NCBI RefSeq assembly: GCF_012939955.1
Contig: NZ_SPMY01000046.1
Coordinates: 1 to 32,968 of the forward strand
Source: Candidatus Accumulibacter phosphatis
GTDB lineage: Bacteria; Pseudomonadota; Gammaproteobacteria; Burkholderiales; Rhodocyclaceae
Direction of reading: 5' to 3'
Length of the DNA: 32,968 nt
Below, one piece after another: positions 5,219-32,468 of this stretch (within the stretch, counting starts at the first letter, position 1; each line of letters begins with the position of its first letter). The notes below the pieces were generated by a model. That model made no database searches. It saw nothing but the letters and a program-made list of their open reading frames with translations, and had not been told where the DNA came from. Position numbers and translations under genes: made by a program.

Positions 5219-5383
5219 GCGTACTGCCGCGTGTTTGCGGGGGGTCATGCGGGTTCTTGTGGACTTCGTCGTTTGGCTCGGGCGCCAGGAATTGGCCGTT
5301 TTCACTCTCTCCTGGCCATTTTTCTCTCCACGGTCGGTGTCCTCTAGAGGCTGAAGTCCACGAGCGCCACGAACTACCCCATT

Positions 5384-5428
5384 ACGAATCAACAGCTTAC
5401 ACGTGGTCCAATCAAGCGGTTGATTCGT
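5384..5428. repeat. 10-bp inverted repeat in a gene-poor stretch downstream of the tRNA
   Basis: ACGAATCAAC (5384-5393) and GTTGATTCGT (5419-5428) are exact inverted copies separated by 25 bp. The stretch 5219-5580 otherwise shows no credible gene. The repeat might be a recombination or attachment-site arm, an operator, or a relic of an element end; none of these can be shown here. Confidence 0.5.
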
Positions 5429-5579
5429 GGCATTGGTAGGCGGTGGAAATAGCGGTGCCAGTCCAGAGAGTGCGAAATGCCGTCAGGCGGCCAACTGGCG
5501 GACCGCACCCGGCCAGAAGTTGCCGCTCGCTTCGCTACTACGCTTCCCGCTTGCCGACCTTGGGGAATCGCCCCACGGG

Positions 5580-5719
5580 AAGGCGCAGAAAAAATCTACG
5601 TGGGCCGAATGGTCAGCGTGATTACCCTGGCGCCGGACATCGTGGCCGCCATCCTAGACGACACTTTACTGGCCCACGTCACGATGTTCGACCTAGCGGC
5701 GGATCCGCCAGCGCCGTGA
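5580..5719 (+). pseudogene. Remnant of a recombinase-associated HTH gene
   Basis: Translation gives EKIYVGRMVSVITLAPDIV followed by AAILDDTLL and FDLAADPP. This aligns with EKIDNSYMCRMLNLTTLAPD, AAILDESLP and HDLAISPP of the intact HTH protein encoded on the other strand at 8189-8644. The remnant ends at a TGA where the intact copy has the Trp of PPVLWEE; the next codons (GAA GAA) still match. The N-terminal half of the family protein is not recognisable upstream. It is the fossil of an earlier recombinase module at the same locus, in opposite orientation to the present one. Confidence 0.7.
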
Positions 5720-5804
5720 GAAGAACCACATCGAAGGCTGTATGGATTTGGCTCACTTCACAGTACACTTCACATCTGGTCATTTTGCGTTTATGGTACG
5801 TAGT

Positions 5805-6599
5805 ATGACTTCTATCGTGGATCCGTTCGTAGCTGCGTTGCCTGCGGAGGTGCCCCTCAAGGACGCCCCCCTCGTCCGCGTCATCGCACAATTCCGCTTC
5901 CCGGAAATCCTCTCGGTCGAGCAGCGAGACTTCGTGGCGCCTTTCCAAGAGGCGATCCGCAGGACGTATTCCGTGCTCCGGCAGGAGCAGACACAAGGGA
6001 TTCTCTTGAGCCCCAGCGGCGCGGCTCCAGCGAAGTCGCAAATAGCGTGGCGTTTCAGCGACACGGAGGGGTTCTGGCGCGTTTCGCTCACCCCCGAGTT
6101 CTTAGCGCTCGAGACCACGAAATATGTGAGCCGTTCTGATTTCTTTGGCAGACTCAAGTCGCTTGCAGAAGCCCTCGACGAACACATCGAACCAGGCCAG
6201 CTCGATCGTCTTGGCGTCCGCTATATCGATCGCATTACCGGCGATGCGGTCGATGACATCGCCAAGTTGGTCCGTCCGGAGGTTCGCGGCATCACCGGAA
6301 CGATCGCTGCCACGCACGCCGTGCATGCGCTTTCCGAGTCGATGTTCGAACTGCCGGAGGCGCGGGTGCTTGCTCGCTGGGGCTGCCTCCCCCCAGGTGC
6401 GACCGTCGATCCTGCCGCGATTGAGCCTGAGAACGAGAAGAGCTGGATTCTTGACCTCGACATGTTCAGCTCTGCTCCGATGCCGTTTATCGTCGAGGAT
6501 GTCGTTGCGGAGGCACAGCGCTACGCCGAGCGCATCTACACGGTCTTCCGCTGGGCGGTGACAGACGACTTCCTTGTACGCTACGGAGGCAAGCCATGA
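5805..6599 (+). CDS. TIGR04255-family-like protein (first gene of a three-gene cassette)
   Basis: The product (264 residues from the ATG at 5805; in-frame ATGs at 5742 and 5793 are alternatives, none with a clear ribosome-binding site) begins with PLKDAPLVRVIAQFRFPEI. It continues with WRVSLTPEFLALETTKYVSRSDFFGRL, LDRLGVRYIDRI and a C-terminal ERIYTVFRWAVTD segment. That order is what I know from TIGR04255, a sporadically distributed family of unknown function in accessory DNA. There are no membrane segments or catalytic motifs that I can name. Its stop overlaps the next start (ATGA), so the cassette is translationally coupled. It follows a mobile-element relic, which supports acquisition by transfer. 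Family assignment is good; molecular role is unknown. Confidence 0.78.
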   Translation: MTSIVDPFVAALPAEVPLKDAPLVRVIAQFRFPEILSVEQRDFVAPFQEAIRRTYSVLRQEQTQGILLSPSGAAPAKSQIAWRFSDTEGFWRVSLTPEFLALETTKYVSRSDFFGRLKSLAEALDEHIEPGQLDRLGVRYIDRITGDAVDDIAKLVRPEVRGITGTIAATHAVHALSESMFELPEARVLARWGCLPPGATVDPAAIEPENEKSWILDLDMFSSAPMPFIVEDVVAEAQRYAERIYTVFRWAVTDDFLVRYGGKP

Positions 6600-8188: not shown

Positions 8189-8644
8189 TCACTCCGCCGG
8201 CAGGTTCTCGCCAACCACACCAATTCGCTTGCGCTGCTCCTCCCACAACACCGGCGGACTGATCGCCAGATCATGCACGCCAACCTGATGCGGCAAGGAC
8301 TCATCCAGGATGGCCGCGATGATATCGGGCGCCAGCGTGGTCAGGTTGAGCATTCGGCACATGTAGCTGTTGTCGATCTTCTCCCGGGCGGCGAGCTCGG
8401 TGATCGACTTGGCTTCGCCCGATTCGAGCATTGCCAACCAGTGATGGCCGCGTGCCAGTGCCAGTTGCATCGGCGTGGCGGCGACATCCCAGGGCCTGGG
8501 CTGGGCGGCTTCACCGTTCGGCAAGGTAACCAGTTTCCGCCCGCTGCGGTGCTTGATTTGTATCGGCACCGACAGGGTCAACCTGCCGTCGCTGGCGGCG
8601 ATGACATCTGACGCCCCGGTCCTGCGGATGCGAATCCCGTTCAC
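8189..8644 (-). CDS. Recombinase-associated HTH protein (ParB/KorB-like DNA-binding)
   Basis: The start is a GTG at 8644 whose GTGA overlaps the recombinase stop, so it is the last gene of the integration operon. The 151-residue protein has a helix-turn-helix resembling ParB/KorB DNA-binding segments at residues about 80-112 (SITELAAREKIDNSYMCRML followed by NLTTLAPDIIAAIL). The N-terminal strand (GRLTLSVPIQIKHRSGRKLV) and the C-terminal EEQRKRIG are also present. It may act as an accessory or directionality factor, or a regulator, for the serine recombinase; that is inference from position. A decayed homologue lies at 5580-5719 on the other strand. Confidence 0.8.
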   Translation of the reverse strand: MNGIRIRRTGASDVIAASDGRLTLSVPIQIKHRSGRKLVTLPNGEAAQPRPWDVAATPMQLALARGHHWLAMLESGEAKSITELAAREKIDNSYMCRMLNLTTLAPDIIAAILDESLPHQVGVHDLAISPPVLWEEQRKRIGVVGENLPAE

Positions 8645-9999
8645 GCGAGCACCTCCTGGCGCCGTTCGGCGGGTGCCGGGCGAAGATCCTGCACCAGACG
8701 TTCGATGCCATTGGCGCGCAGGCGTACTTCCAGATCGGTGGGCGAAACGATCACCTTCTCGACCAGGAGCCGGACGATCCGCGTCTGCTCGGCGGAAAAC
8801 AACTGGTCCCAGATCACGTCGAGCCGCGTCATGGCCACGGTCACCTTGGCTTCGTCCAGGGTCGGATCCAGTTTGCTCGCCTGCGACAGCATGTCACCGA
8901 CCATCGCCGGTGTGCGCAGGATGCCGCGTAGTTGTTCGAGCACTGCCGACTCCAGCTCTGCCGCCGGCAAGCGTGGCAGACCGGACGCTCCGGCCTGCTC
9001 CTTGGTATCGCGCATCGGGATGTAATACCGGTAGCGGCGTCCGTTACTCTTCTTCGTCGTGTGCCAGGGCGACAAGGCCCGCCCGTCATGGCCAAATACG
9101 ATGCCCTTGAGCAGGAAGGGCACGACCGCTCGCGTCGCGTTGCCGCGCATCCGGCAATTGGTGGCGAGAATCGCATGCACGCTGTCCCACAACTCGCGTT
9201 TGATGATTGGCGGGTGCGCCGCCGGAAACCACTCACTCTTGTGCCGCAGTTCGCCGAGGTAGGTGCGGCTGTGCAGCAACTTGTAGATCATCCCCTTGTC
9301 GATCGGCTTCCCCTCGCGGACCCTGCCGTCCTGAGTGGTCCAGGCCTTCGAGGTGACGCCGTCGAGCTTCAGTTCGTTGAACAGCGAGGTGCTGGAGCCG
9401 AGTTCGACGAAGCGCTGAAAGATGTGCCGGATGAGTTTCGCCTCGCGTTCGTTGGGGACCAGTCGCCGGTTCTCGACGTTGTAGCCCAGCGGCGGCACGC
9501 CCCCCATCCACATGCCCTTGCGCTTGCTGGCGGCGATCTTGTCGCGGATCCGCTCGCCGGTGACCTCACGCTCGAACTGCGCGAACGACAGCAGGATGTT
9601 GAGCATCAGGCGACCCATCGAGGTCGTGGTGTTGAACTGCTGGGTCACCGAGACGAAGGAAACACCGTAGCGTTCGAAGACTTCCACCATCTTGGAGAAG
9701 TCCGCCAGGCTGCGGGTCAGGCGATCGATCTTGTAGATCACGACCACGTCGATCTTGCCGGCCTCGATGTCGACGATCATGCGCCGGAGTGCCGGACGCT
9801 CCATGTTCCCACCCGAGAAAGCGGGGTCATCGTAGTCGTCTGCCACCGGAATCCAGCCCTCGGCGCGTTGGCTGGCGATATAGGCGTGACCGGCGTCGCG
9901 CTGTGCATCGATGGAGTTGTACTCCTGGTCCATCCCTTCGTCGGTGGACTTGCGTGTGTAGACGGCGCAGCGCACGCGCCGCTTAAGGGCTTCGCTCAT
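8641..9999 (-). CDS. Large serine recombinase (site-specific integrase)
   Basis: The 452-residue protein starts at the ATG at 9999 (MSEALKRR), whose ATGA overlaps the DUF2924 stop and which has an AGGA ribosome-binding site; the open frame further upstream is not family-like. The resolvase domain shows VYTRKSTDEG with the nucleophilic Ser at residue 18, VIYKIDRLTRSL and LMLNILLSFAQFEREVTGERI. A recombinase domain (PPLGYNVENRRLVPNEREAKLIRHIF), an insertion region and a C-terminal MTRLDVIWDQLF region follow. The enzyme cuts and exchanges DNA through a phosphoserine link, usually att x att without host factors. It is the likely integrase of the element. The target site is not identifiable. Confidence 0.93.
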   Translation of the reverse strand: MSEALKRRVRCAVYTRKSTDEGMDQEYNSIDAQRDAGHAYIASQRAEGWIPVADDYDDPAFSGGNMERPALRRMIVDIEAGKIDVVVIYKIDRLTRSLADFSKMVEVFERYGVSFVSVTQQFNTTTSMGRLMLNILLSFAQFEREVTGERIRDKIAASKRKGMWMGGVPPLGYNVENRRLVPNEREAKLIRHIFQRFVELGSSTSLFNELKLDGVTSKAWTTQDGRVREGKPIDKGMIYKLLHSRTYLGELRHKSEWFPAAHPPIIKRELWDSVHAILATNCRMRGNATRAVVPFLLKGIVFGHDGRALSPWHTTKKSNGRRYRYYIPMRDTKEQAGASGLPRLPAAELESAVLEQLRGILRTPAMVGDMLSQASKLDPTLDEAKVTVAMTRLDVIWDQLFSAEQTRIVRLLVEKVIVSPTDLEVRLRANGIERLVQDLRPAPAERRQEVLA

Positions 10000-10496
10000 C
10001 GCCGTAGTCCTTTCCTGGTGGACACTTCCGGCTTGGCCGGGCCTTTGAGTCCGAAGAAGAGCGGTCCCGACCATCGTGTTCCGGTGATCTCGCGCGCGAT
10101 CATCGAGAGGCTCGGGTACATCCGGCCGTTGAACTCGTACTGCCCGTCGGCGGTGGCGACCACACAGTATTCGACGTCGCGGTATTCACGCGTCAGCACG
10201 GTGCCTGCTGCCGGTCGGGTGTCGCGATCGCTTTTCTCGACCTTGCCCGTTTCGAGGAGCGCTGCAATTCGACGCTGGTTTCTCTCCAGCAGTTTGGCAT
10301 CGACCTTGCGAAACTCCACTTCCTGCAAGCGGTAGGCGATGCGGCGTTCCAGGAACGGCCGGTTATAGTTGGGCGTGTCGGCGCCGAACAGCTTCTGCCA
10401 GAGCGCCTTGATCTCTGGCATCTTGAGTTCGGGCAAACGGCCGATCTGCGCCACGACCGACGGCGGCGTAGCGGGAGTACGCGGGGAGATGTTCAT
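9996..10496 (-). CDS. DUF2924-family protein
   Basis: The 166-residue protein contains LPELKMPEIKALWQKLFG, RPFLERRIAYRLQEVEF, and the C-terminal SLSMIAREITGTRWSGPLFFGLK that I recognise as the DUF2924 signature, a family repeatedly found just upstream of serine recombinases in prophages and integrative elements. Its function is unknown. The start at 10496 has ACGGAG 7 bases upstream, and a copy of the repeated promoter element lies 37-65 bases upstream of the start. The stop overlaps the recombinase start, so recombinase translation is coupled to it. Confidence 0.88.
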   Translation of the reverse strand: MNISPRTPATPPSVVAQIGRLPELKMPEIKALWQKLFGADTPNYNRPFLERRIAYRLQEVEFRKVDAKLLERNQRRIAALLETGKVEKSDRDTRPAAGTVLTREYRDVEYCVVATADGQYEFNGRMYPSLSMIAREITGTRWSGPLFFGLKGPAKPEVSTRKGLRR

Positions 10497-10508: not shown

Positions 10509-10757
10509 CTATTCCTTGTTGACGGGGTGTGAATGAACGCGCTGGTGGCCGGAGAAGGCAAGCTCAAACTCGTTCTCTCGGGCCGCAGGCTCTACGACGC
10601 CGCGAAGACGGGCCAGCCCATTGGCCAGCAATGATGCGATCTCGATCCGACGCTGCTCCGGCGTCATGCGCTCCGGGGGCAGGTGGCTGACCTGGCCGTC
10701 GCTTCGCGCCGCTTCGCTCTCGGCTCGTAACGAGGCACATCGTTTTATCTCACGCAT
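10509..10757 (-). CDS. Small protein upstream of the integration operon (hypothetical)
   Basis: The 82-residue frame (MREIKRCASLRAES) has a plausible helical core, LPPERMTPEQRRIEIASLLANGLARLRG, similar to small proteins I recall preceding DUF2924/recombinase pairs. Its last 15 codons coincide with the repeated promoter element, so the C-terminus GHQRVHSHPVNKE is probably a by-product of promoter sequence. The gap to the ImmA gene (10758-10886) shows only a short CGCTT-GA-AAGCG palindrome and nothing else clear. It is probably a real gene; function unknown. Confidence 0.6.
   Translation of the reverse strand: MREIKRCASLRAESEAARSDGQVSHLPPERMTPEQRRIEIASLLANGLARLRGVVEPAARENEFELAFSGHQRVHSHPVNKE
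10533..10561 (-). promoter_or_regulatory. Repeated promoter element, copy 0 (DUF2924-recombinase operon)
   Basis: On the minus strand: TTGCCT, 17 bp, GTTCAT, with CAGCGCGTTCAT at the -10 side and GTCAAC downstream. It matches the seven copies in the 28.6-32.5 kb array in sequence and spacing. It overlaps the 3' end of the small upstream ORF. Confidence 0.72.
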
Positions 10758-23592: not shown

Positions 23593-23787
23593 AAGAATTT
23601 TGATAGAGCTTTCGGACATGTGCGCGCTGCTGCAAAAACCTGCGGAGCGTTGCCAAATTCAGGACTCCGAGGGGGTGTCGCATCTCGGGCCGTTTTGACC
23701 TACAGTCACGGCTATGGTTGGGAAGGGTGCGAGAGCAGCGACGCGGCCCTCACACACGAGAATTCCTTCCTTCCAGCCGCACCAGCG

Positions 23788-23822
23788 ACCCGCCCCTGTG
23801 GCGGGTTTTTGCTTTCAGCGCC
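23788..23822 (+). repeat. 35-bp repeat with terminator, copy 1 (left of the GGDEF gene)
   Basis: The sequence holds a perfect hairpin CCCGCC-CCTGT-GGCGGG followed by TTTTT, then GCTTTCAGCGCC. An identical 35-bp copy lies at 25698-25732, and similar bases extend on both sides with small indels. It probably terminates the replication operon. The remainder of the gap 23593-23871 contains no gene I can support. Confidence 0.9.
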
Positions 23823-23871
23823 CCGTGATCCTTTACCTTGCCCACCACCGCCTTTGCGGAAGAGGCTGACG

Positions 23872-25581
23872 ATGCTCTGGACAATGCAATGGCGCGGCTG
23901 CAGAAAAGACCGCACAATGCCAAGAGTCGCGTCAACAACTACTGAAGACTCCTGCCTGACACCCTTTTGGCATCATTGCTGGCAACACTTGAAGAACCTT
24001 CGGTCATTCGGTTTTGCTTCCCGGTGGCGAATCGGCACAATGCTCCTGTGGCTGGTTCTCGCCTGCCTGCTGCCGGGAATACTGGGCGTGGTGGTTTTGT
24101 TCTCGCGGGAATATCTGAACGGCCGAGCCCAACTAGAAAGGGACATGATCGCAACGGCGCGTGCGATGGTTCAGTCGGTTGATAGCCAACTGTTCAGAGC
24201 CAAGACCGTTGGCCAAGTACTGGTCACGTCGAGTGCGCTTATCCCCCACGACTTGGCGGGATTCCATCGACGGGCGCGTGACGTCATCGCCACGGCAAAC
24301 GTGGGTATGAACGTCGTGCTCAGCGATGAGAACGGCCAGCAATTGGTCAACACGCTGCGGGAATTTGGCGAACCTCTGCCGCAGCACGGCCGTCCGGAAA
24401 TTCTCCGTCGTGTCTTCGAGACCGGACAACCGGTCATTTCTGAGATCTACGTCGGTGGGGTACTGCGTAAGCCCGTGCTGAGCATCGACCTACCGGTGAC
24501 TCTTGCCGGTAAGGTGGCCTATGTCCTGAGCATCGGCCTGTTGCCGAACGATTTCAACGCGATCCTCGCTGCGCAAAGCTTCCCACCCGGTTGGGTCTCA
24601 GCAATATTCGACCCCACGGGCACCATCGCCGCGCGCACTCACGCTTCGGAAGAGTTCGTCGGCCAGAAGGGAACGGCCGAGTACATCCAGCGCATCAGCG
24701 AATCCCCGGAAGGCTCAATGAAGACCATTACCCGTGAGGGAATTCCGACGTTGTCGGTCTGGAGCCGCTCATCGGTCACTGGCTGGAGTGTCGGTATCGG
24801 AATTCCTCGTGCAATCCTCGAACGCGATCTAATGCACACCATGACCTGGCTGGCTGCGGGCCTGGTCACCTTGCTCTTCGTTGGGCTCTGTTTGGCGTGG
24901 TTAGCCGGACGGAGAATCGCCGGCTCGGTCCGTGCACTGACCGCGCCGGCAATCGCCTTGGGACACGGGCAGTCCGTGCCAATTCCCGGTGTGTCTATCC
25001 ACGAAGCGGCTGAGGTCGCTGTCGCGCTTCGTCAGACCGGAGAATTGTTGGCTGCACGCACTGCCGCCTTGGAGGCTGCCAATCGGGAGCTTGAGCAACT
25101 TGCTCGGGTGGACACACTCACCGGGCTGCAAAACCGCAAGTCAGCCAACGAGAGGCTGCACCTGGAATTCCTACGCTTCAAGCGGTCAGGCCGCCCCTAT
25201 TGCGTGCTGTTCATGGATATTGATTGCTTCAAGGAGATTAACGATACCCTTGGCCACGAAGCAGGCGATCAAGTGCTGCGGCAAATGGCGACTGTGCTCA
25301 AAGATTCATTGCGGGAAACCGATTTCGTCGCGCGTTATGGCGGGGAGGAATTCCTCGCGATCCTCTCGGAGACGACTGTCCAAGGAGCCTTGGCGACTGC
25401 CGAGATCGTCAGACGCACGGTCGCCGAGCAATCTTTCCTCCTGGTAGGACAAGTGACAGTGAGTATTGGGGTCGCGACGGCGCTCGATGAGGACAAGAAT
25501 GAGGAGGGGGCGGTACGCCGGGCAGATACCGTCCTCTACCAGGCCAAGGCATGTGGCCGCAACGCGGTTCGCTCTTGCTGA
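23872..25581 (+). CDS. Membrane diguanylate cyclase (sensor-GGDEF) carried as cargo
   Basis: I take the ATG at 23872 (GAGG 7 bases upstream); 23917 is an alternative. The 569-residue protein has a first membrane helix (MLLWLVLACLLPGILGVVVLF, about residues 58-78), an extracytoplasmic sensor of about 260 residues, a second helix (WLAAGLVTLLFVGLCLAWLAG), a HAMP-like region and coiled coil, then a GGDEF domain with ARVDTLTGLQNRKSANERL, MDIDCFKEINDTLGHEAGD, and the active site YGGEEF preceded by the RETD inhibitory site. It should make cyclic di-GMP under product feedback. Its base composition is less GC-rich than its neighbours and it sits between two copies of a 35-bp repeat, so it looks like late-acquired cargo (a 'moron'). 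Confidence 0.93.
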   Translation: MLWTMQWRGCRKDRTMPRVASTTTEDSCLTPFWHHCWQHLKNLRSFGFASRWRIGTMLLWLVLACLLPGILGVVVLFSREYLNGRAQLERDMIATARAMVQSVDSQLFRAKTVGQVLVTSSALIPHDLAGFHRRARDVIATANVGMNVVLSDENGQQLVNTLREFGEPLPQHGRPEILRRVFETGQPVISEIYVGGVLRKPVLSIDLPVTLAGKVAYVLSIGLLPNDFNAILAAQSFPPGWVSAIFDPTGTIAARTHASEEFVGQKGTAEYIQRISESPEGSMKTITREGIPTLSVWSRSSVTGWSVGIGIPRAILERDLMHTMTWLAAGLVTLLFVGLCLAWLAGRRIAGSVRALTAPAIALGHGQSVPIPGVSIHEAAEVAVALRQTGELLAARTAALEAANRELEQLARVDTLTGLQNRKSANERLHLEFLRFKRSGRPYCVLFMDIDCFKEINDTLGHEAGDQVLRQMATVLKDSLRETDFVARYGGEEFLAILSETTVQGALATAEIVRRTVAEQSFLLVGQVTVSIGVATALDEDKNEEGAVRRADTVLYQAKACGRNAVRSC

Positions 25582-25787: not shown

Positions 25788-27194
25788 GTGGCCCCATCCG
25801 ACTTGACGCTGGAGCAATGGCCGGTCGAGCGATTGATTGACTACGCCCGAAATCCACGCAAGAACGACCACGCCGTCGCGCAGATGGCGGCGGTGATCAC
25901 CGAGTTCGGGTTTCGGATTCCCGTGGTTGCCAGGAGCACAGGGGAAATTGTTGACGGTCATCTTCGGCTCAAGGCGGCGCGCAGGCTTGGTCTGACCTCG
26001 GTACCCGTGGTCCTGGCCGACGAACTGACGGATGCCCAGATCAAGGCGTTCCGCCTCCTGGCCAACCGCTCTGCCACCTGGGCGGAGTGGGACCAGGCCA
26101 TGCTGGCGCTGGAACTCGAAGACCTGAAGCTGGCCGACTTCGATCTGTCATTGACAGGTTTCGACGCCGACGAGATCGAGGCCTTGCTGGCCGACGATCA
26201 CACCGACGCAGAGCAGCCGGGCGATGGCAACCCGCCCGATGCCGGCGACGACGTACCCGATGTCCCGAGCAATCCCGTCTCTCGCACCGGCGATGTCTGG
26301 ACCTTGGGCCCTCACCGGCTGATCTGCGGTGACGCCGCTGACTCTGCCGTGATCACGCCGCTGATGGCCGGCGATCGGGCGCGGGTCTGCTTCACCTCAC
26401 CGCCCTACGGCAACCAGCGCGACTACACCAGCGGCGGCATCACCGATTGGGACGGATTGATGCGCGGCGTCTTCGTAGATCTCCCGATGACCGACGACGG
26501 CCAGGTGCTGGTCAACCTCGGCCTGATCCACCGCGACAGCGAAGTGATCCCGTACTGGGACAACTGGCTGGCATGGATGCGCACCCAGGGCTGGCGGCGG
26601 TTCGCGTGGTATATCTGGGACCAGGGGCCCGGGATGCCTGGCGACTGGGCCGGACGTTTCGCCCCGAGCTTCGAGTTCGTCTTCCACTTCAACCACCAGA
26701 GCCGCAAGCCGAACAAGATCGTTCGCTGCAAGCACGCTGGCCAGGACTCGCACCTGCGCGCCGACGGATCATCGACAGCGATGCGCGGCAGGAATGGCGA
26801 GGTCGGCGGCTGGACGGCAGCGGGCCAACCGACGCAGGACAACCGGATCCCCGACTCGGTGATCCGGGTGATGCGCCACAAGGGTAAGATCGGGCAGGAC
26901 ATCGACCACCCCGCCGTCTTCCCGATCGCCCTGCCGGAGTTCATCCTCGAGGCCTACTCCGACACCGGCGACCTCGTGTTCGAACCCTTCTGCGGTTCAG
27001 GAACGACGATGCTCGCGGCACAGCGTACCGGCCGCATCGCCCGCTCGGTCGAGATTGCCCCCGAGTACGTCGATGTGGCGATCAAGCGCTTCCAGCAGAA
27101 TTTTGCCGGCGTGCCGGTGACGCTCGTGGCCACCGGCCAGACGTTTGACGAGGTCGCCGACGAGCGCCTGGGGAGCGACGATGCTGACCGTTGA
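25788..27194 (+). CDS. ParB-domain DNA methyltransferase 1 (SPPY type)
   Basis: The start is the GTG at 25788 with AGAGGTG upstream. The 468-residue protein has an N-terminal ParB/sulfiredoxin-like domain (IDYARNPRKNDHAVAQMAAVITEFGF, VDGHLRLKAARRLGL; about residues 10-120), then a methyltransferase domain with catalytic TSPPYGNQRDY (about residue 203) and the AdoMet motif FEPFCGSGTTMLAA (about residue 398), a beta-class order. SPPY usually marks N4-cytosine methylation. It is the first of two tandem enzymes with near-identical ParB domains. It probably protects or marks phage DNA; no restriction gene is alongside. It overlaps the next gene by 14 bases. Confidence 0.92.
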   Translation: MAPSDLTLEQWPVERLIDYARNPRKNDHAVAQMAAVITEFGFRIPVVARSTGEIVDGHLRLKAARRLGLTSVPVVLADELTDAQIKAFRLLANRSATWAEWDQAMLALELEDLKLADFDLSLTGFDADEIEALLADDHTDAEQPGDGNPPDAGDDVPDVPSNPVSRTGDVWTLGPHRLICGDAADSAVITPLMAGDRARVCFTSPPYGNQRDYTSGGITDWDGLMRGVFVDLPMTDDGQVLVNLGLIHRDSEVIPYWDNWLAWMRTQGWRRFAWYIWDQGPGMPGDWAGRFAPSFEFVFHFNHQSRKPNKIVRCKHAGQDSHLRADGSSTAMRGRNGEVGGWTAAGQPTQDNRIPDSVIRVMRHKGKIGQDIDHPAVFPIALPEFILEAYSDTGDLVFEPFCGSGTTMLAAQRTGRIARSVEIAPEYVDVAIKRFQQNFAGVPVTLVATGQTFDEVADERLGSDDADR

Positions 27195-28443
27195 GCAGTG
27201 GCCGATCGACCGCCTGATCGAGTACGCGCGCAACCCGCGCAAGAACGATCATGCCGTCGACCAAATGGCCGCCGCGATCCAGGAGTTCGGTTTTCGGATC
27301 CCTTGTGTCGCCCAGTCCGATGGGCGCCTGGTCGACGGCCACCTGCGTCTGAAGGCGGCGCGCAAGCTCGGGCTCGACACGGTCCCGGTGATCCTGGCCG
27401 ACGACCTGACGCCGACGCAGATCAAAGCCTTTCGTCTGCTGGCCAACCGCTCGGCCACCTGGGCCGAATGGGATGATGATCTGCTGCGCCTCGAACTCGA
27501 TGAACTGAAGCTCGACGACTTCGATCTGGCACTGACCGGTTTCGATGCCGACCAGTTGCTGGAGATCATGGCCGGCGAGGAGAGCAGCACCGAAGGCCAG
27601 ACCGACGACGACGCCGTGCCGGACGTTCCGGAAACGCCGGTGTCGCGACTGGGCGACGTGTGGGTGCTCGGCAAGCACCGGCTGCTGTGCGGGGACGCTA
27701 CCCAAGAGGCCAGCTACCAAACGCTGCTCGGCACCGATCATGTGTCGATGCTCTGGCAAGACCCGCCGTACGGCGTGAACTACGCCAACAGCGCCAAGGA
27801 CAAGCTGCGCGGCAAGAACCGGCCAATCCTCAACGACAACCTGGGCGATGACTTCGGTCCCTTCCTGCAAGCGGCGCTCACCCCGGCACTGGCACGTTGC
27901 GATGGCGCGGTCTACATCGCCATGTCCTCCAGTGAACTCGACGTGCTGCAGTCCGCATTCCGCGCCGCCGGTGGCCACTGGTCGACGTTCATCATCTGGG
28001 CCAAAAACACCTTCACGCTCGGCCGCGCCGACTACCAGCGCCAGTACGAGCCGATGCTCTACGGCTGGCCCGAAGGCGGCAAGCGCCACTGGTGCGGCGA
28101 CCGTGACCAGGGCGACGTGTGGCAGATCAAGAAGCCGGTCAAAAACGATCTGCATCCGACGATGAAGCCAGTAGAACTGGTCGAGCGGGCGATCCGCAAT
28201 TCGAGTCGGCCGGGTGACTTGGTGCTCGATTGCTTCGGCGGCTCCGGTACCACGTTGATCGCCGCCGAGAAGTCGGGCCGGTTCGCAAGGTTGATGGAAC
28301 TGGATCCGAAGTACGTCGATACCATCGTTCGCCGCTGGCAGGAGTACACCGGCAACAACGCCACCCGAGAGTCGGATGGCGTTGAGTTTGATGCGATGTT
28401 CGGTCAGGCTGAGGTGGTTGGTGATGTCACTTGCGACCCGTAA
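27181..28443 (+). CDS. ParB-domain DNA methyltransferase 2 (DPPY type)
   Basis: The start is the ATG at 27181 (MLTVEQWPIDRL), inside the end of the first enzyme. The 420-residue protein repeats the ParB-like domain (YARNPRKNDHAVDQMAAAIQEFGF, IKAFRLLANRSATWAEWD) but its catalytic motif is DPPYGVNYANSAKDK (about residue 194), typical of N6-adenine enzymes, and its AdoMet motif is LDCFGGSGTTLIAAE (about residue 348), followed by the KPVELVERAI segment. Partnered with a cytosine-type relative, it would give the element two methylation marks. The stop overlaps the tail of the minus-strand small gene by 17 bases. Confidence 0.92.
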   Translation: MLTVEQWPIDRLIEYARNPRKNDHAVDQMAAAIQEFGFRIPCVAQSDGRLVDGHLRLKAARKLGLDTVPVILADDLTPTQIKAFRLLANRSATWAEWDDDLLRLELDELKLDDFDLALTGFDADQLLEIMAGEESSTEGQTDDDAVPDVPETPVSRLGDVWVLGKHRLLCGDATQEASYQTLLGTDHVSMLWQDPPYGVNYANSAKDKLRGKNRPILNDNLGDDFGPFLQAALTPALARCDGAVYIAMSSSELDVLQSAFRAAGGHWSTFIIWAKNTFTLGRADYQRQYEPMLYGWPEGGKRHWCGDRDQGDVWQIKKPVKNDLHPTMKPVELVERAIRNSSRPGDLVLDCFGGSGTTLIAAEKSGRFARLMELDPKYVDTIVRRWQEYTGNNATRESDGVEFDAMFGQAEVVGDVTCDP

Positions 28444-28618
28444 CTGCGGTCAGTTTGCTGCGCGCGGGCCCCGTCCAGAAGCAGGGGCCCTTGCCACTTT
28501 TGGCTTCGTCGTCCCAACGCTCAAGGATCTCGGCGTCGGTCCAGCCTTTGGCGGCGAGGTAGGCGTAGTCGTCGCTGTTGAAGTTGCTGTGCTTGCGGAG
28601 GGTCTCGTTGGTGGCCAT
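28427..28618 (-). CDS. Small acidic protein of the array (hypothetical, 63 aa)
   Basis: The product is MATNETLRKHSNFNSDDYAYL followed by AAKGWTDAEILERWDDEAKSGKGPCFWTG. It is preceded by GGGAGAAACACC as ribosome-binding site and by promoter copy 1. It overlaps the end of the second methyltransferase gene tail to tail. The helix-rich AKGWTDAEILERWDDEA segment is a small-domain pattern without a name I can give. It is the last gene of the minus-strand array. Confidence 0.75.
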   Translation of the reverse strand: MATNETLRKHSNFNSDDYAYLAAKGWTDAEILERWDDEAKSGKGPCFWTGPARSKLTAVTGRK

Positions 28619-28651: not shown

Positions 28652-28680
28652 ATGATTGCTCTACCACGAACACAAGCCAA
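28652..28680 (-). promoter_or_regulatory. Repeated promoter element, copy 1
   Basis: TTGGCT, 17 bp, AATCAT, then TCATCAAC; the CAGCGCGTTCAT motif is replaced by TAGAGCAATCAT, making this the most diverged copy, yet with the best -10. ATTGAGAA lies upstream as in copies 2 and 6. Confidence 0.7.
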
Positions 28681-28709
28681 GTGCTTTCTCAATCATTTTG
28701 GCAACGCTT

Positions 28710-28961
28710 TCAGTCTTCCCAAATAGACGTTGCATCGCGCGCAATCCAGATGCGCGCCCGGTCGTCGTCGCTTGCTGCTTCGACCACCGCGCTGCCTGTT
28801 TTCGTGTTGACGCCCGCTTTGCCGGTGGCACAGAAAGTCTTGCCGTCGTGGATGATGATGCTCGGCGCCGCCTTGCTGAACTCGATCTGGATGCTCATCA
28901 TGCCGCGGTTGCGACCGTTGGTATCGGTCACGTTGGTCTGGAGGGTGGTCTTGGCGGTCAT
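28710..28961 (-). CDS. Array protein, 83 aa, unknown
   Basis: The start is the ATG at 28961 because GAGGAG lies 6 bases upstream; the longer frame passes through the promoter repeat. The product (MTAKTTLQTNVTDTNGRNRGMMSIQIEF, then APSIIIHDGKTFCATGKAG) looks like a small beta-strand protein. No domain recognised. Preceded by promoter copy 2. Confidence 0.75.
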   Translation of the reverse strand: MTAKTTLQTNVTDTNGRNRGMMSIQIEFSKAAPSIIIHDGKTFCATGKAGVNTKTGSAVVEAASDDDRARIWIARDATSIWED

Positions 28962-28997
28962 GGCATGCTCCTCGGGGTAGTTGGCTGCGACACCCGT

Positions 28998-29026
28998 ATG
29001 AACGCGCTGTTTGATTGACAAGGCAA
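28998..29026 (-). promoter_or_regulatory. Repeated promoter element, copy 2
   Basis: TTGCCT, 17 bp, GTTCAT with the full CAGCGCGTTCAT; ATTGAGAA upstream; downstream half differs (ACGGGTGTCGCAGCC in place of ACGATCGTCATCAAC). Confidence 0.75.
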
Positions 29027-29127
29027 GCGCGTTCTCAATCATTGTGGACGCATGGCGCCTTGGCTTGCACAGACGCGCCGTGTGGCGTCGTCGTGTCGCC
29101 GGCGAGTCCTTGCTTGGCGACGCCGAT

Positions 29128-29505
29128 TCAGCACCACGTCACGCCAGACCGCAGTTCGTGGGCAACCGCCAGCAGGTGAAAGACTTCCTTGAGGCGCCGG
29201 ACGACACCCTCCTGGTCGATGCCCGGGTCGATGACGCGAACGCCCCGCTGGATGGTCGGCTGGCCGTCGATCTCAACGATGCGGGTCGGCCCGCTCTCGT
29301 CGGTCGGTGCGACGGTCTGGATACCCCAGGCCTGATGCAACGCCCGGATGGCCCGTTGACGCAGGCGCGGTAGTTCGGCGAAGTCGATCTCGCCGTAACC
29401 CTCGGAGGTGTCGATGCCCAGCGCGCCCAGCACGATGGCCGCATTGCGATTGGAGTAGTTGACCTCCGTTTCGGGCTGCTGGTCGATGCGGATGGTAATG
29501 CTCAT
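29128..29505 (-). CDS. Array protein, 125 aa, unknown
   Basis: The start is the ATG at 29505 with AGGGAG 7 bases upstream. The product contains MSITIRIDQQPETEVNYSNR, AAIVLGALGI, FAELPRLRQRAIRALHQAWGI and GVVRRLKEVFHLLAVAHELRSG. It is soluble and helical in its second half. No domain recognised. Preceded by promoter copy 3. The stretch downstream (29043-29127) holds a GC-rich motif (CGCGCCGTGTGGCG) shared with 30315-30328. Confidence 0.75.
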   Translation of the reverse strand: MSITIRIDQQPETEVNYSNRNAAIVLGALGIDTSEGYGEIDFAELPRLRQRAIRALHQAWGIQTVAPTDESGPTRIVEIDGQPTIQRGVRVIDPGIDQEGVVRRLKEVFHLLAVAHELRSGVTWC

Positions 29506-29542
29506 GGTGTGGCTCCCTGGCGTGGTTGGTGGCGACACCCCG

Positions 29543-29571
29543 ATGAACGCGCTGTTTGATTGAGAAGCCAA
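29543..29571 (-). promoter_or_regulatory. Repeated promoter element, copy 3
   Basis: TTGGCT, 17 bp, GTTCAT within CAGCGCGTTCAT. The region between is CTCAATCAAA, shared with copy 2 and unlike the others. Confidence 0.78.
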
Positions 29572-29619
29572 GCGCCACGACGATCATTCGCGTGACCCGA
29601 CGTCTCGTTCGAGATGGCC

Positions 29620-29847
29620 TCAACCCTGGCTGTCGAGTTGGAAACTTCCCGGGCCGTTGCCTTCGTCGTCGGCGAGGAAGATGAGGGTTCGCTTCTGCCC
29701 GTTGGGCAAGGTAATGACCAGACCGAAGAATTCGTCGCCGTACTCGTCGACGCCGGTCCGGGCAAGGTTGGTGATGGTGCCGCCCAACAGCGGGCGCAGT
29801 TGCTGGAGATGGAAGTCGACGACGGAGGGTGGGGTGCTGGTGGTCAT
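29620..29847 (-). CDS. Array protein, 75 aa, unknown
   Basis: The product (MTTSTPPSVVDFHLQQLRPL, then GGTITNLARTGVDEYGDEFFGLVITLPNGQKRTLIFLADDEGNGPG) is a small beta-rich protein with an AAAGGAG ribosome-binding site. It is the only array gene without the promoter repeat, 49 bp after the preceding gene's stop, so the two are probably co-transcribed. Confidence 0.75.
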   Translation of the reverse strand: MTTSTPPSVVDFHLQQLRPLLGGTITNLARTGVDEYGDEFFGLVITLPNGQKRTLIFLADDEGNGPGSFQLDSQG

Positions 29848-29896
29848 GACAGACTCCTTTGGTGTACTAGTGGACGACGGGTGCTGGTCATCGGTT

Positions 29897-30169
29897 CTAA
29901 ACGTCCCGCAGGACAGTGATGCCGGCCTGCGCCAGGGTCAACGCGGCGCTGGCGAAGATCGCCTCGGCCATCCCCGGACACGCCTGGGTGTCGTCGAGTA
30001 ATTCGTCGACGACTTCGCGAGACCGAGCGCGCATCGCCACGAGTGCCGCCTCGCGCAGTTCGTGGCTGGCGGTCCTGATCTCCGGGCAGAGCCGGATCAG
30101 CGTGGTGAGGGCGGCGGTGGCGAGTTGGTTGCCGAGGGTATCCAGGTTGCTGGTTTGGGTCGGGGTCAT
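29897..30169 (-). CDS. Array protein, 90 aa, unknown
   Basis: The start is the ATG at 30169 with CAGGAG 7 bases upstream. The product (MTPTQTSNLDTLGNQLATAA, then LTTLIRLCPEIRTASHELREAALVAMRARSREVVDELLDDTQ) is all-helical and soluble. No domain recognised. Preceded by promoter copy 4; leads the two-gene unit with the 75-aa protein. Confidence 0.75.
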   Translation of the reverse strand: MTPTQTSNLDTLGNQLATAALTTLIRLCPEIRTASHELREAALVAMRARSREVVDELLDDTQACPGMAEAIFASAALTLAQAGITVLRDV

Positions 30170-30201
30170 GGCGGGCTCCTGCGGTGGTTGATGACGATCG
30201 T

Positions 30202-30230
30202 ATGAACGCGCTGTTCGCTGCTGAAGCCAA
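30202..30230 (-). promoter_or_regulatory. Repeated promoter element, copy 4
   Basis: TTGGCT, 17 bp, GTTCAT in CAGCGCGTTCAT, then ACGATCGTCATCAACC; the downstream part is identical to copy 6 over this stretch. A typical full-consensus copy. Confidence 0.8.
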
Positions 30231-30383
30231 GCGGAATCACAATCTTCGTCGGCTGGCCCCTGGCGTCGTGACGCTCGCCACCTCCTCGGCGTTGGCCCTG
30301 CGGGTTGCACGGCCGCGCCGTGTGGCGCTTCGACGCCGCCGGTTGACTACTTGGTGCACCGCGCCAGTTACGGCGCCCAGACG

Positions 30384-30410
30384 CCAAAACGCCCGGTGGC
30401 CCGGGCGTCT
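30384..30410 (-). terminator. Hairpin terminator after the DUF932 gene
   Basis: ACGCCCGG-GCCA-CCGGGCGT followed by TTT on the minus strand, starting about 18 bases after the DUF932 stop. The same hairpin recurs at 31536-31555. The rest of 30247-30427 shows no gene. Confidence 0.72.
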
Positions 30411-30427
30411 GGCGAGATGGTTGGCGG

Positions 30428-31417
30428 CTAGGCCACCAATTTCTCCGCCAGCTGGTACGCGTGATCCTTGAACCGGGCGCCCGAGCCAAACCAGGCGGCG
30501 TTCAACCGGTTGTCCTGGAGGCGGCCCTTCTCGTGGTCGATGTACTCGGTGGTGGCGTTGAGCAGACCCCACAGGGTCTGGTCGGTCGCGTCCTGGTGGC
30601 CGCCGATCATCTCGCCGGCAAAGAGTTCGACGATGCGGCGGTAGCCCTTGGACTTCCTGACCTGCTCAGGCGTGTAACTCTGCCCGTAGGGCATGAAGGG
30701 CTGGAACAAGTCCTGCAGCCAGCCATCGGTTTCGAGATCGGTCAGTTTCCGGCCGGCCATCAGCCCGGCCTTCTGCTGGAACTCGTCCCAGGCGTCCAGC
30801 GCGATGCCCAGGTCCGCCCGGACCGCTTTGGCATCGAAGATCGCCTGGTGCGAGATCGTCACCTGACGCTGCGCATCCCGGTTGCGCAGGGAGGCCTGCA
30901 GCGTGTTGTTGCACACGACCCGGATCGTCGTGAACCGCGCCACGGTCGCCATCGTGCCGTCGTAGGAGGTCGCCAGCAGCAGGTAGGGGGCGACTTCGTC
31001 GTCCAGGATGCGGGCGTTCTTGCCAACGCGCCCCAGTGCCCAGATGCGCCGGCCATTCATCAGCGCGCCGACGGTCTCGATGCGGAACTGCTTGGCCTCG
31101 GCCAACGCACCGAAGAAGTTGAGAATGTCCGCCGGCTGGACCACCTGGTAGTCGGACGAGACGACCGACAAGGGTGCGCCACAGTCGCTGCGGTACAGCA
31201 CGTGCTTGTCGGCAAAGGACTCGCGCTGGTTCGTGACGGTGCTGTCGAACTGGACCTCGGCCTTGAGGGCGCGCCATTCGAGCTGCGCGGCCTTCTGCCA
31301 GACCTCGACGCTGGCCTCGGGATCGACCGTTTGCCCGAGCCCGTGCCAGGGGACATCGGTGTCCGTGGCGTAGGCGATGGCGGCTTGGCCGGTGGTGAAG
31401 TCGATCTGGTGTGCCAT
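30428..31417 (-). CDS. DUF932 / TIGR03299 phage/plasmid-like protein
   Basis: The 329-residue protein starts MAHQIDFTTGQAAIAYATDT and contains DVPWHGLGQTVDPEAS, ALNGRRIWALGRV-like MNGRRIWALGRVGKNARI, LLATSYDGTMATVARFTTIRVVCNNTLQASL and a C-terminal YIDHEKGRLQDNRLNAAWFGSGARFKDHAYQLA, the layout of the DUF932 family. These occur on phages and plasmids and have no agreed function. GGAG ribosome-binding site and promoter copy 5 are upstream, a hairpin terminator downstream. The longest gene of the array. Confidence 0.93.
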   Translation of the reverse strand: MAHQIDFTTGQAAIAYATDTDVPWHGLGQTVDPEASVEVWQKAAQLEWRALKAEVQFDSTVTNQRESFADKHVLYRSDCGAPLSVVSSDYQVVQPADILNFFGALAEAKQFRIETVGALMNGRRIWALGRVGKNARILDDEVAPYLLLATSYDGTMATVARFTTIRVVCNNTLQASLRNRDAQRQVTISHQAIFDAKAVRADLGIALDAWDEFQQKAGLMAGRKLTDLETDGWLQDLFQPFMPYGQSYTPEQVRKSKGYRRIVELFAGEMIGGHQDATDQTLWGLLNATTEYIDHEKGRLQDNRLNAAWFGSGARFKDHAYQLAEKLVA

Positions 31418-31454
31418 GGTGTTTCTCCTTCGTGGTGTGGTTGATGACGATCAT

Positions 31455-31483
31455 ATGAACGCGCTGTGCCCAACACAAGCCAA
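31455..31483 (-). promoter_or_regulatory. Repeated promoter element, copy 5
   Basis: TTGGCT, 17 bp, GTTCAT in CAGCGCGTTCAT, then ATGATCGTCATCAACC. Upstream is an A-rich stretch (CTAAAAAATCG) in place of ATTGAGAA. Confidence 0.8.
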
Positions 31484-31535
31484 GCGATTTTTTAGTCCTC
31501 TGTCGTTTATCTTCGCCGTGGCTCCAAACGCAAGA

Positions 31536-31555
31536 ACGCCCGGTGGCCCGGGCGT
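31536..31555 (-). terminator. Hairpin downstream of the 63-aa HTH-like gene
   Basis: Same ACGCCCGG-GCCA-CCGGGCGT stem-loop as at 30389-30408, followed on the minus strand by TCTTG, a weak T run. It lies 20-40 bases after the stop of the 31575-31766 gene. Confidence 0.6.
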
Positions 31556-31574
31556 CTGGTGATGCTGTGGCGAC

Positions 31575-31766
31575 TCACACCATGTGGCGTGGGTCGCCGG
31601 TCAGGATTTCGAGCCAGTCCATGACGTAGTGCTCGCCGGAGACGCCTTGGGTGCGCACCTGGCGCACGCGCTTCATGGTGAGATTCCACTCCTCGGCAAT
31701 GCCGCGGATCGTCTTGTGATGCTTGCGCATCAGGTGCTGGATGGTTTGGGCGCTGAGGGTGTTCAT
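31575..31766 (-). CDS. Array protein, 63 aa, HTH-like
   Basis: The product (MNTLSAQTIQHLMRKHHKTI, then RGIAEEWNLTMKRVRQVRTQGVSGEHYVMDWLEILTGDP) has a plausible small helix-turn-helix: TIRGIAEEWNLTMKRVRQVR. It could be the array's own DNA-binding regulator, which is inference. GGAG at the usual distance, promoter copy 6 upstream. Confidence 0.78.
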   Translation of the reverse strand: MNTLSAQTIQHLMRKHHKTIRGIAEEWNLTMKRVRQVRTQGVSGEHYVMDWLEILTGDPRHMV

Positions 31767-31798
31767 GGTGGTCTCCTGCTGGCGTTGATGACGATCGT

Positions 31799-31827
31799 AT
31801 GAACGCGCTGTCTGGCGCCGAAGCCAA
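31799..31827 (-). promoter_or_regulatory. Repeated promoter element, copy 6
   Basis: TTGGCT, 17 bp, GTTCAT in CAGCGCGTTCAT, then ACGATCGTCATCAAC; preceded by ATTGAGAAGGCGC. Together with copy 4 it is closest to the consensus. Confidence 0.8.
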
Positions 31828-31883
31828 GCGCCTTCTCAATCTTTTTCGGGGCGGCTGGATGTTTCCAACCACCCCTTCGGTGA

Positions 31884-32405
31884 CTACCCAATGTGGTAGA
31901 TGCGCTCACCACCCTGGGGTTTCTCCGAGGTGATGGTCAGCCCGAGTTTCTTCTTGAACGCGCCGGCAAACGCGCCTCGCACGGTGTGCGACTGCCAGCC
32001 GGTGGATGCGCAAATTTGCGCAATTGTCGCGCCCTCGGGCCGCTTGAGCAGGGCGATCACCGCCGCCTGCTTGCTGTTCGCGCGGGTGCGGGGCTTCGCC
32101 GTCGTCGCTTGCTTCTCGGCCACCCATTGCGCCTCGGTGACCACCAGGGCGGCTTCCACCTCCGGGTCGGGATGCGTGGTCGGCAGTGCCGGCGGGGTGC
32201 GCCCCAGTGCGTCGTAGCCACCCGGCGAGATGAACCAGTCAGCGTCGCTGCCGGTGATCAGGGCTTTGTTGCAGAGGCCCTCGATCACCTTCTTGCGGGC
32301 GCCGCCCTTGACGTTGTCGGGGAACCAATTGACACGGCCATCGGGTTGCTCGGCAGCCTGTTCGAGGACCAGGCGCTGGGTGTCGGTGAGTGCGGTGCGG
32401 GTCAT
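31884..32405 (-). CDS. DUF3489-family protein
   Basis: The start is the ATG at 32405 (MTRTALTDTQRLVLEQAAEQ) with AAGGAG 6 bases upstream. The 173-residue protein ends with the DUF3489 signature: SKQAAVIALLKRPEGATIAQICASTGWQSHTVRGAFAGAFKKKLGLTITSEK, a winged-helix DNA-binding type domain (about residues 105-165). The N-terminal half contains a second helical segment (LEQAAEQPDGRVNWFPDNVKGG). A transcription-factor-like or DNA-binding role is likely. Preceded by promoter copy 7; it is the first gene of the array. Confidence 0.9.
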   Translation of the reverse strand: MTRTALTDTQRLVLEQAAEQPDGRVNWFPDNVKGGARKKVIEGLCNKALITGSDADWFISPGGYDALGRTPPALPTTHPDPEVEAALVVTEAQWVAEKQATTAKPRTRANSKQAAVIALLKRPEGATIAQICASTGWQSHTVRGAFAGAFKKKLGLTITSEKPQGGERIYHIG

Positions 32406-32439
32406 GGCGATCTCCTTGATCGGGGTTGATGACGAGCAC

Positions 32440-32468
32440 ATGAACGCGCTGTTCAATCACGAAGCCAA
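32440..32468 (-). promoter_or_regulatory. Repeated promoter element, copy 7
   Basis: TTGGCT, 17 bp, GTTCAT in CAGCGCGTTCAT, then GTGCTCGTCATCAACC. It is divergent from the HNH gene, which begins 25 bases beyond. Confidence 0.8.

Follow-up and report, generated by a model that had tools for sequence, protein, structure and literature searches.

Prophage morons are cargo genes that bring their own promoter and sometimes their own terminator, and in phage lambda one activator, CII, switches the integrase promoter and other promoters together. Stoperators are asymmetric, oriented repressor sites scattered over a phage genome. In cluster A mycobacteriophages they are repeated 13-bp sites linked to the regulation of transcription (PMC3203893). 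In cluster K mycobacteriophages, repeated intergenic elements called ESAS precede many small genes, mostly on one strand, and contain putative -35 and -10 hexamers spaced 17-18 bp apart (PMC3203893, PMC11373665). Here we describe a repeated 31-letter, promoter-like element in a stretch of 32,968 nucleotides of Candidatus Accumulibacter phosphatis (contig NZ_SPMY01000046.1; the whole stretch is called the window below), where it precedes most genes of an array of small genes and also an operon that holds a DUF2924 gene and a serine recombinase. Judging from sequence comparison, we consider it probable (roughly 0.7) that the element is a directional promoter of a phage family, with sigma70-type geometry, which would switch cargo and integration genes together and whose repeats would serve the gain and loss of genes.

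A pattern scan of the window detected TTGSCT-N17-GTTCAT seven times exactly and once in degenerate form. The seven exact copies compare with a mean of 0.0025 and a maximum of 1 in 400 first-order Markov simulations of the window. All copies lie on the minus strand, as follows; C36 denotes a second contig of the same genome.

32440-32468, minus strand: element copy 1, exact match, before the DUF3489 gene; an identical copy lies in C36.
31799-31827, minus strand: element copy 2, exact match, before the gene at 31575-31766.
31455-31483, minus strand: element copy 3, exact match, before the DUF932 gene.
30202-30230, minus strand: element copy 4, exact match, before the gene at 29897-30169.
29543-29571, minus strand: element copy 5, exact match, before the gene at 29128-29505.
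28998-29026, minus strand: element copy 6 (TTGCCT), exact match, before the gene at 28710-28961.
28652-28680, minus strand: element copy 7, degenerate (TTGGCT...AATCAT, no CAGCGC; two hexamer mismatches), before the gene at 28427-28618.
10533-10561, minus strand: element copy 8 (TTGCCT), exact match, before the DUF2924-recombinase operon.

A first-pass annotation of this DNA had listed the same eight sites as TTGGCT or TTGCCT, a 17-bp gap and GTTCAT. This description holds for seven of them and fails for 28652-28680, which ends in AATCAT; the same degenerate counterpart of this copy is found in C36. Its two further statements stood: CAGCGCGTTCAT is present in seven of the eight copies, and CATCAAC usually follows downstream (five copies, at 28652, 30202, 31455, 31799 and 32440). 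In all eight copies the hexamers are 17 bp apart, and 31-37 nt separate CAT from the start codon. Seven of the eight array genes are preceded by a copy, in one case the degenerate one, and the exception is the gene at 29620-29847. Copy 8 lies 36 nt ahead of the DUF2924 gene and overlaps the 3' end of a small open reading frame (ORF) on the minus strand (10509-10757). The last codons of this ORF overlap the element, and similar ORFs precede other DUF2924 genes.

The anatomy of the element was derived from a profile of 211 distinct cores, taken from the window and loci L009-L206 with up to four mismatches. The profile reads GCTTGGCTT(C)-N6-GAACAGCGCGTTCAT, and most fixed letters exceed 90%. When the first T of TTGGCT is counted as -35, an A-rich stretch occupies -44 to -40, and a start-site signature lies 7 nt past GTTCAT, with a pyrimidine at -1 in 96% and a purine at +1 in 78% of the cores. 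The sigma70-type geometry that had been proposed from the 17-bp spacing agrees with this signature, which stands at the right distance. Hence the element would be a promoter with sigma70 spacing but with a -10 that is not of the sigma70 type. Sigma54, sigma32, sigma28 and extracytoplasmic function (ECF) sigma factor sites and the LexA box were compared by eye, and none fitted.

We then found the element well beyond the window. IMG/VR loci were fetched by DUF3489; 430 stretches matched a pattern, 425 encode a relative, and the best 80 were kept. These 80 loci contained 193 exact copies on the strand of the DUF3489 gene, none on the opposite strand, and none of a reversed control pattern. An ORF with a ribosome-binding-site-like stretch lay downstream of 385 of 408 sites, at a commonest distance of 34-36 nt past CAT. 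Scans with the exact element matched at least 118 genome stretches and at least 120 viral-contig stretches, and all counts derived from them are lower bounds. Among the matches listed, an ORF and a ribosome-binding-site-like stretch followed closely behind 132 of 147 distinct exact sites in genomes and 130 of 136 in viral contigs; the largest downstream families in both together were DUF2924 (at least 76), DUF3489 (at least 49) and a 65-residue array protein (at least 43). The genomes among these listed matches belong mostly to Beta- and Gammaproteobacteria, with Nitrospira defluvii and one archaeal bin in addition; Alphaproteobacteria are represented by two loci of one bin. For a few listed matches, such as L159 and L201, no plausible gene follows, and these may be due to chance. 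Across phages and prophages of Beta- and Gammaproteobacteria, Acidithiobacillus and Nitrospira, the core GCTTGGCTTC-N6-GAACAGCGCGTTCAT hardly varies. Of 369 genomes in a class sample, 13 contained the exact element, none the reversed pattern, and 9 a DUF3489 protein over the curated cut-off (12 at E 0.001). The arrays of Roseicitreum (L315) and Shinella (L314) gave no clear element copy by eye. Phage AcaML1 (L221) has an exact copy (5564) together with an array-type ORF that is not annotated, at 5359-5820, opposite an annotated terminase small subunit, and that annotation may be a wrong call.

In the 5.04-Mb home genome, TTGSCTT-N10-CAGCGCGTTCAT with at most one mismatch was found only in the contig of the window (seven matches) and at 90.5-91.2 kb of C36 (two), in a second prophage region, where the copies stand beside a second DUF3489 gene. 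Allowing two or three mismatches added five further places, on C14, C36 (a site at 111 kb), C2, C16 and C38, and a reversed-pattern control in the same genome gave no match. The version found at a second DUF2924 gene (73.4-73.8 kb of C36) has TTGATA at -35 and an unchanged CAGCGCGTTCAT. In this genome, with no more than one mismatch allowed, the element keeps to mobile DNA; it is not equally common in unrelated host DNA, which the first-pass annotation had named as a refutation.

That annotation had also proposed one regulon joining the array to the recombinase operon. Ten mobile elements were compared in this respect: eight IMG/VR phages, the C36 region and AcaML1. The eight phages were drawn from the ten of 25 records with a match to the XRE repressor of the window, and from G002, G003, G009, G014 and G020 the first 40 kb of each was compared. 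A recombinase was detected in eight of the ten; none was present in the stretch examined of G002 and of C36. All eight recombinase-bearing relatives have the element both at the DUF2924 promoter, with 0-3 mismatches of 21 fixed letters, and in the array, with 3-5 copies besides. Together with the variant at the second DUF2924 gene of the home genome and with Agarilytica, described below, these eight uphold the proposed regulon. The -10 read GTTCAT, GTTACT, GTTTAT or GTGAAT across the mobile elements compared. The element was further found before an AlpA-like gene (L166, L143, G161, G150), before a gene of 96 amino acids, and before long ORFs that open a DUF499 operon, identified by Pfam in L093 and L202 and by translation similarity, by eye, in L117 and L180. 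The regulon would therefore be larger than array and integration. Because the DUF499 match begins well inside these ORFs (for L202 at residue 249 by Pfam and 122 by PADLOC), the true ORF start and its distance to the element are uncertain in these operons. The L202 operon also holds DUF3780 and DUF1156 (Pfam). The DUF499 operon resembles an Hma-like defence system, and DUF499 also matches HmaC.

The array of the window contains a block of about 2.8 kb that the C36 array lacks, and to either side of it the two arrays share 95.8% identity. The alignments of the two flanks have 25 bases in common, which begin 15 nt upstream of the element and extend over its first ten letters. In the 80 loci, 34 of 67 large-indel junctions touched the element region, defined as 25 nt before to 5 nt after the element, against 8.3 expected, and the other 33 did not; the 67 junctions derive from 181 pairwise events and are partly de-duplicated, not independent. 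These results suggest that element copies act as joints where array genes have been gained or lost.

More distant versions were seen as well. Plasmid pSU2 of Agarilytica has the same gene content in similar order: an array with DUF3489, a methyltransferase, DUF6362, a primase-like ATPase, a helicase, a helix-turn-helix protein, DUF2924 and a recombinase. Several of its array genes carry CTTGATG...GAGC-GTTAAT, and its DUF2924 promoter reads TTGCTT...GAGC-GTACAT, both with 17 bp between the hexamers. In a scan of pSU2 four array copies stood clear of noise (25-34 of 34 letters), and two more, at 20 letters or fewer, fell within the range of the control, which gave 17 matches of at least 19. Distant DUF2924 promoters read CTGGATAA...; of 30 loci, 9 had a loose core upstream. 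Twelve versions of the element, chosen by hand and not a sample, were compared. All of them have the 17-bp spacer, GC at -14/-13 and T at -7. Ten have TTG at -35, with the last three letters differing from those of TTGACA, and the two others, both distant DUF2924 versions, have TGGATA.

The genes of the array and of the integration operon, with one hairpin, are as follows.

31884-32408, minus strand: DUF3489 protein with two predicted winged-helix-like domains, candidate reader of the element (Pfam PF11994, E 1e-32; AlphaFold2; Foldseek, with weak E-values).
31575-31766, minus strand: array gene, 63 amino acids, no family match.
30428-31417, minus strand: array gene, DUF932 (PF06067).
29897-30169, minus strand: array gene, 90 amino acids, phrog_36268 (unknown function).
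29620-29847, minus strand: array gene, 75 amino acids, without its own element copy.
29128-29505, minus strand: array gene, 125 amino acids, no family match; a similar protein, by eye, stands behind the element in L343.
28710-28961, minus strand: array gene, 83 amino acids, no family match; 93% relative in C36.
28427-28618, minus strand: array gene, 63 amino acids, no family match; 97% relative in C36.
9996-10496, minus strand: DUF2924 protein (PF11149, E 8e-42).
8641-10074, minus strand: serine recombinase (integrase; phrog_95, E 1e-103), following the DUF2924 gene.
31535-31556, minus strand: terminator-like hairpin between array genes; similar repeat at 30377-30415 (repeat family D8).

Terminator-like sites in the region are not above chance (2 found, 3.9 expected from shuffles). 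The 39-nt stretches 30377-30415 and 31524-31562, both between array genes, are 90% alike and each contains an inverted repeat. Two DNA methyltransferase genes adjoin the array (25788-28443, plus strand) and have relatives in all ten mobile elements compared; the first matches PADLOC MTase_II models and has a ParB-like N-terminus as read by eye. Between DUF6362 and the methyltransferases, the ORF at 23620-25581 (plus strand, 653 amino acids) resembles, from its translation by eye, a membrane-bound diguanylate cyclase.

Several encoded proteins were considered as readers of the element. With the XRE immunity-type repressor of the window as query, a match was found in 10 of 25 phage records, at 24-38% identity in eight of the ten. 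This protein is hardly the reader, because in most phages with the element it is missing or only 24-38% identical while the element is unchanged, and a classical immunity-repressor operator is unlikely. The AlpA-like protein is a less likely reader because the letters of its recognition helix differ between phages with the same element. DUF6362 was rejected, as it was not found at E 1e-4 in AcaML1 or C36, both of which bear the element. DUF2924 is a possible reader. The best single candidate is DUF3489, an assignment that we make tentatively and with more doubt than trust. Of 19 viral contigs of at least 30 kb listed by the motif, three were left out as already seen via DUF3489; the 16 taken contained DUF3489 in 14, AlpA-like in 11 and DUF2924 in 10 cases. 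AlphaFold2 predicted two units in DUF3489 (9-67 and 113-173), each with helices followed by a strand hairpin, joined by a low-confidence linker (mean predicted local distance difference test score 79.4, predicted template modelling score 0.42). A Foldseek search of this model against the Protein Data Bank returned mostly winged-helix proteins and some unrelated enzymes, with a best E of 0.024 and none below 0.001. In alignment A1 the C-terminal helix of DUF3489 hardly varies among the window, 26 IMG/VR relatives and AcaML1. It differs in Eleftheria and Agarilytica, which have other promoter letters, and in Roseicitreum.

According to the reading that we prefer, each promoter would consist of TTGGCTT at -35, a 17-bp spacer with a fixed AACAGCGC block, GTTCAT at -10 and a transcription start about 7 nt further on. 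The promoter would belong to a family of temperate phages, and each copy would drive a single small cargo gene or a few consecutive genes. The DUF2924-recombinase operon would be driven by the same promoter as the cargo, and therefore cargo and integration functions would be switched together. A protein encoded by the mobile element may help the non-consensus -10, array genes may act early, at entry or at the integration decision, and the repeated promoters would provide short homologies for the gain or loss of promoter-gene units. Several observations weigh against this reading. None of the array copies was reported by a plain sigma70 consensus scan, and none of the twelve versions has the sigma70 letters T at -12 and A at -11, the latter position being T or C. 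DUF3489 was not found in two of the 16 motif-selected contigs, which may be fragments, or in G032, G061, G161, G225 and G287, five of the 13 genomes that bear the exact element; the genome of G225 is incomplete, but the complete genome of G161 still has the element at DUF2924 without DUF3489. The residue conservation of DUF3489 may also have other causes and is weak evidence. The phage core ATPase is likewise missing from the same five genomes, which fits with their being remnants or other mobile elements. G061 looks like a chance match with no gene behind it, and G032 and G287 look like remnants.

Two rivals deny that the element is a promoter. It might be translated, as a leader or C-terminal peptide (LGFxxxQRVHT), or work at the RNA level, a rival that we regard as very improbable. 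LGF..QRVH can indeed be read in one frame of the copies, and the copy at 10533 forms the tail of a small ORF whose relatives precede other DUF2924 genes. However, third codon positions in the CAG CGC GTT CAT block are no freer than the first and second and are conserved to at least the same degree, an in-frame stop lies close by in 67 of 408 copies, and a stop breaks the frame in L289, a distant DUF2924 promoter (by eye); the coding version was rejected on third-position conservation and in-frame stops. The RNA version was rejected since candidate pairs showed no covariation in the 211-core profile, fold z-scores of six copies were near 0 (-0.44 to 0.90), and no Rfam family passed its cut-off in the window or in eight relatives, the four matches obtained without cut-offs all being under the gathering scores of their families. 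A gene-cassette recombination site would account for the junction of the 2.8-kb block and for the excess of indel junctions in the element region, but homologous repeats recombine whatever their function, and the 67 junctions are not independent. A near-constant distance to the start codon, a start-site signature, a single orientation throughout the loci selected by DUF3489 and the presence of copies at lone genes outside arrays also speak against such a site, which we find quite unlikely.

The other rivals keep a promoter; two of them share this part with our preferred reading, so that their odds are not exclusive. An ordinary promoter read by host RNA polymerase alone, in which the fixed spacer would set strength or the rate of open-complex formation as in optimised early phage promoters, is possible at clearly less than even odds. 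The element is nearly letter-identical across phages with differing XRE repressors and AlpA-like helix residues, and TTG at -35 and the 17-bp spacer recur in 10 and 12, respectively, of the 12 hand-chosen versions; yet -12/-11 never fit sigma70 in these versions, and the letters follow the lineage of the mobile element and not the host, in the few cases available (Agarilytica compared with Nitrospira and Acidithiobacillus). A similar chance, again a minority one, goes to a promoter-operator silenced in lysogeny by an encoded repressor that would read the AACAGCGC block. A shared repressor would need just such a block, fixed in the spacer of many promoters, and the ESAS of phage Adephagia pair putative SigA-like promoters with inverted repeats, as stated in PMC11373665. 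Against it, the XRE/ImmA immunity pair is not conserved alongside the element, and the site lacks the symmetry of most dimer operators. Finally, the element could belong to a private promoter class that co-evolves with DUF3489 as its encoded reader, each of whose winged helices would read one half of a bipartite site. Such a class would form a single regulon of integration, the AlpA-like gene in some mobile elements and promoter-gene cassettes, the promoter would be the joint for swapping cargo, and the class would also have reached defence-like islands in cellular genomes. We consider this unlikely.

Searches of the open-licence PubMed Central (PMC) literature by sequence string, phrase and family name found no paper on the promoter itself, and among the four open-licence papers that name DUF2924 or DUF3489, judged by title and beginning of the abstract, none was about the element; DUF3489 is mentioned in PMC4520260. 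The core GCTTGGCTTC-N6-GAACAGCGCGTTCAT can be searched for as a signature of cargo genes in a phage family that is widespread but little studied, and it groups small genes of unknown function with the integrase in one putative regulon. It raises the question of what reads a sigma70-spaced promoter without a sigma70 -10 across Burkholderiales, Acidithiobacillus and Nitrospira. AcaML1, a phage named in 18 open-licence papers, carries the element and provides a defined system for such a test.

In comparison with known systems, a CII-like gene as in lambda was sought only among the families named here. In contrast to stoperators, the present copies sit at promoter position, and unlike morons, one near-identical promoter is common here to the whole array and the integration genes. 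The element resembles ESAS in preceding many genes with promoter-like hexamers. However, ESAS have 17-bp imperfect inverted repeats and SigA-like hexamers, whereas the present element is asymmetric, has no such repeats, has a non-consensus -10, and has a copy at the integrase operon. Taken together, repeated phage promoters are a known theme; what is new is a promoter-like variant that extends across a phage family, and the comparison upholds the idea of a regulon.

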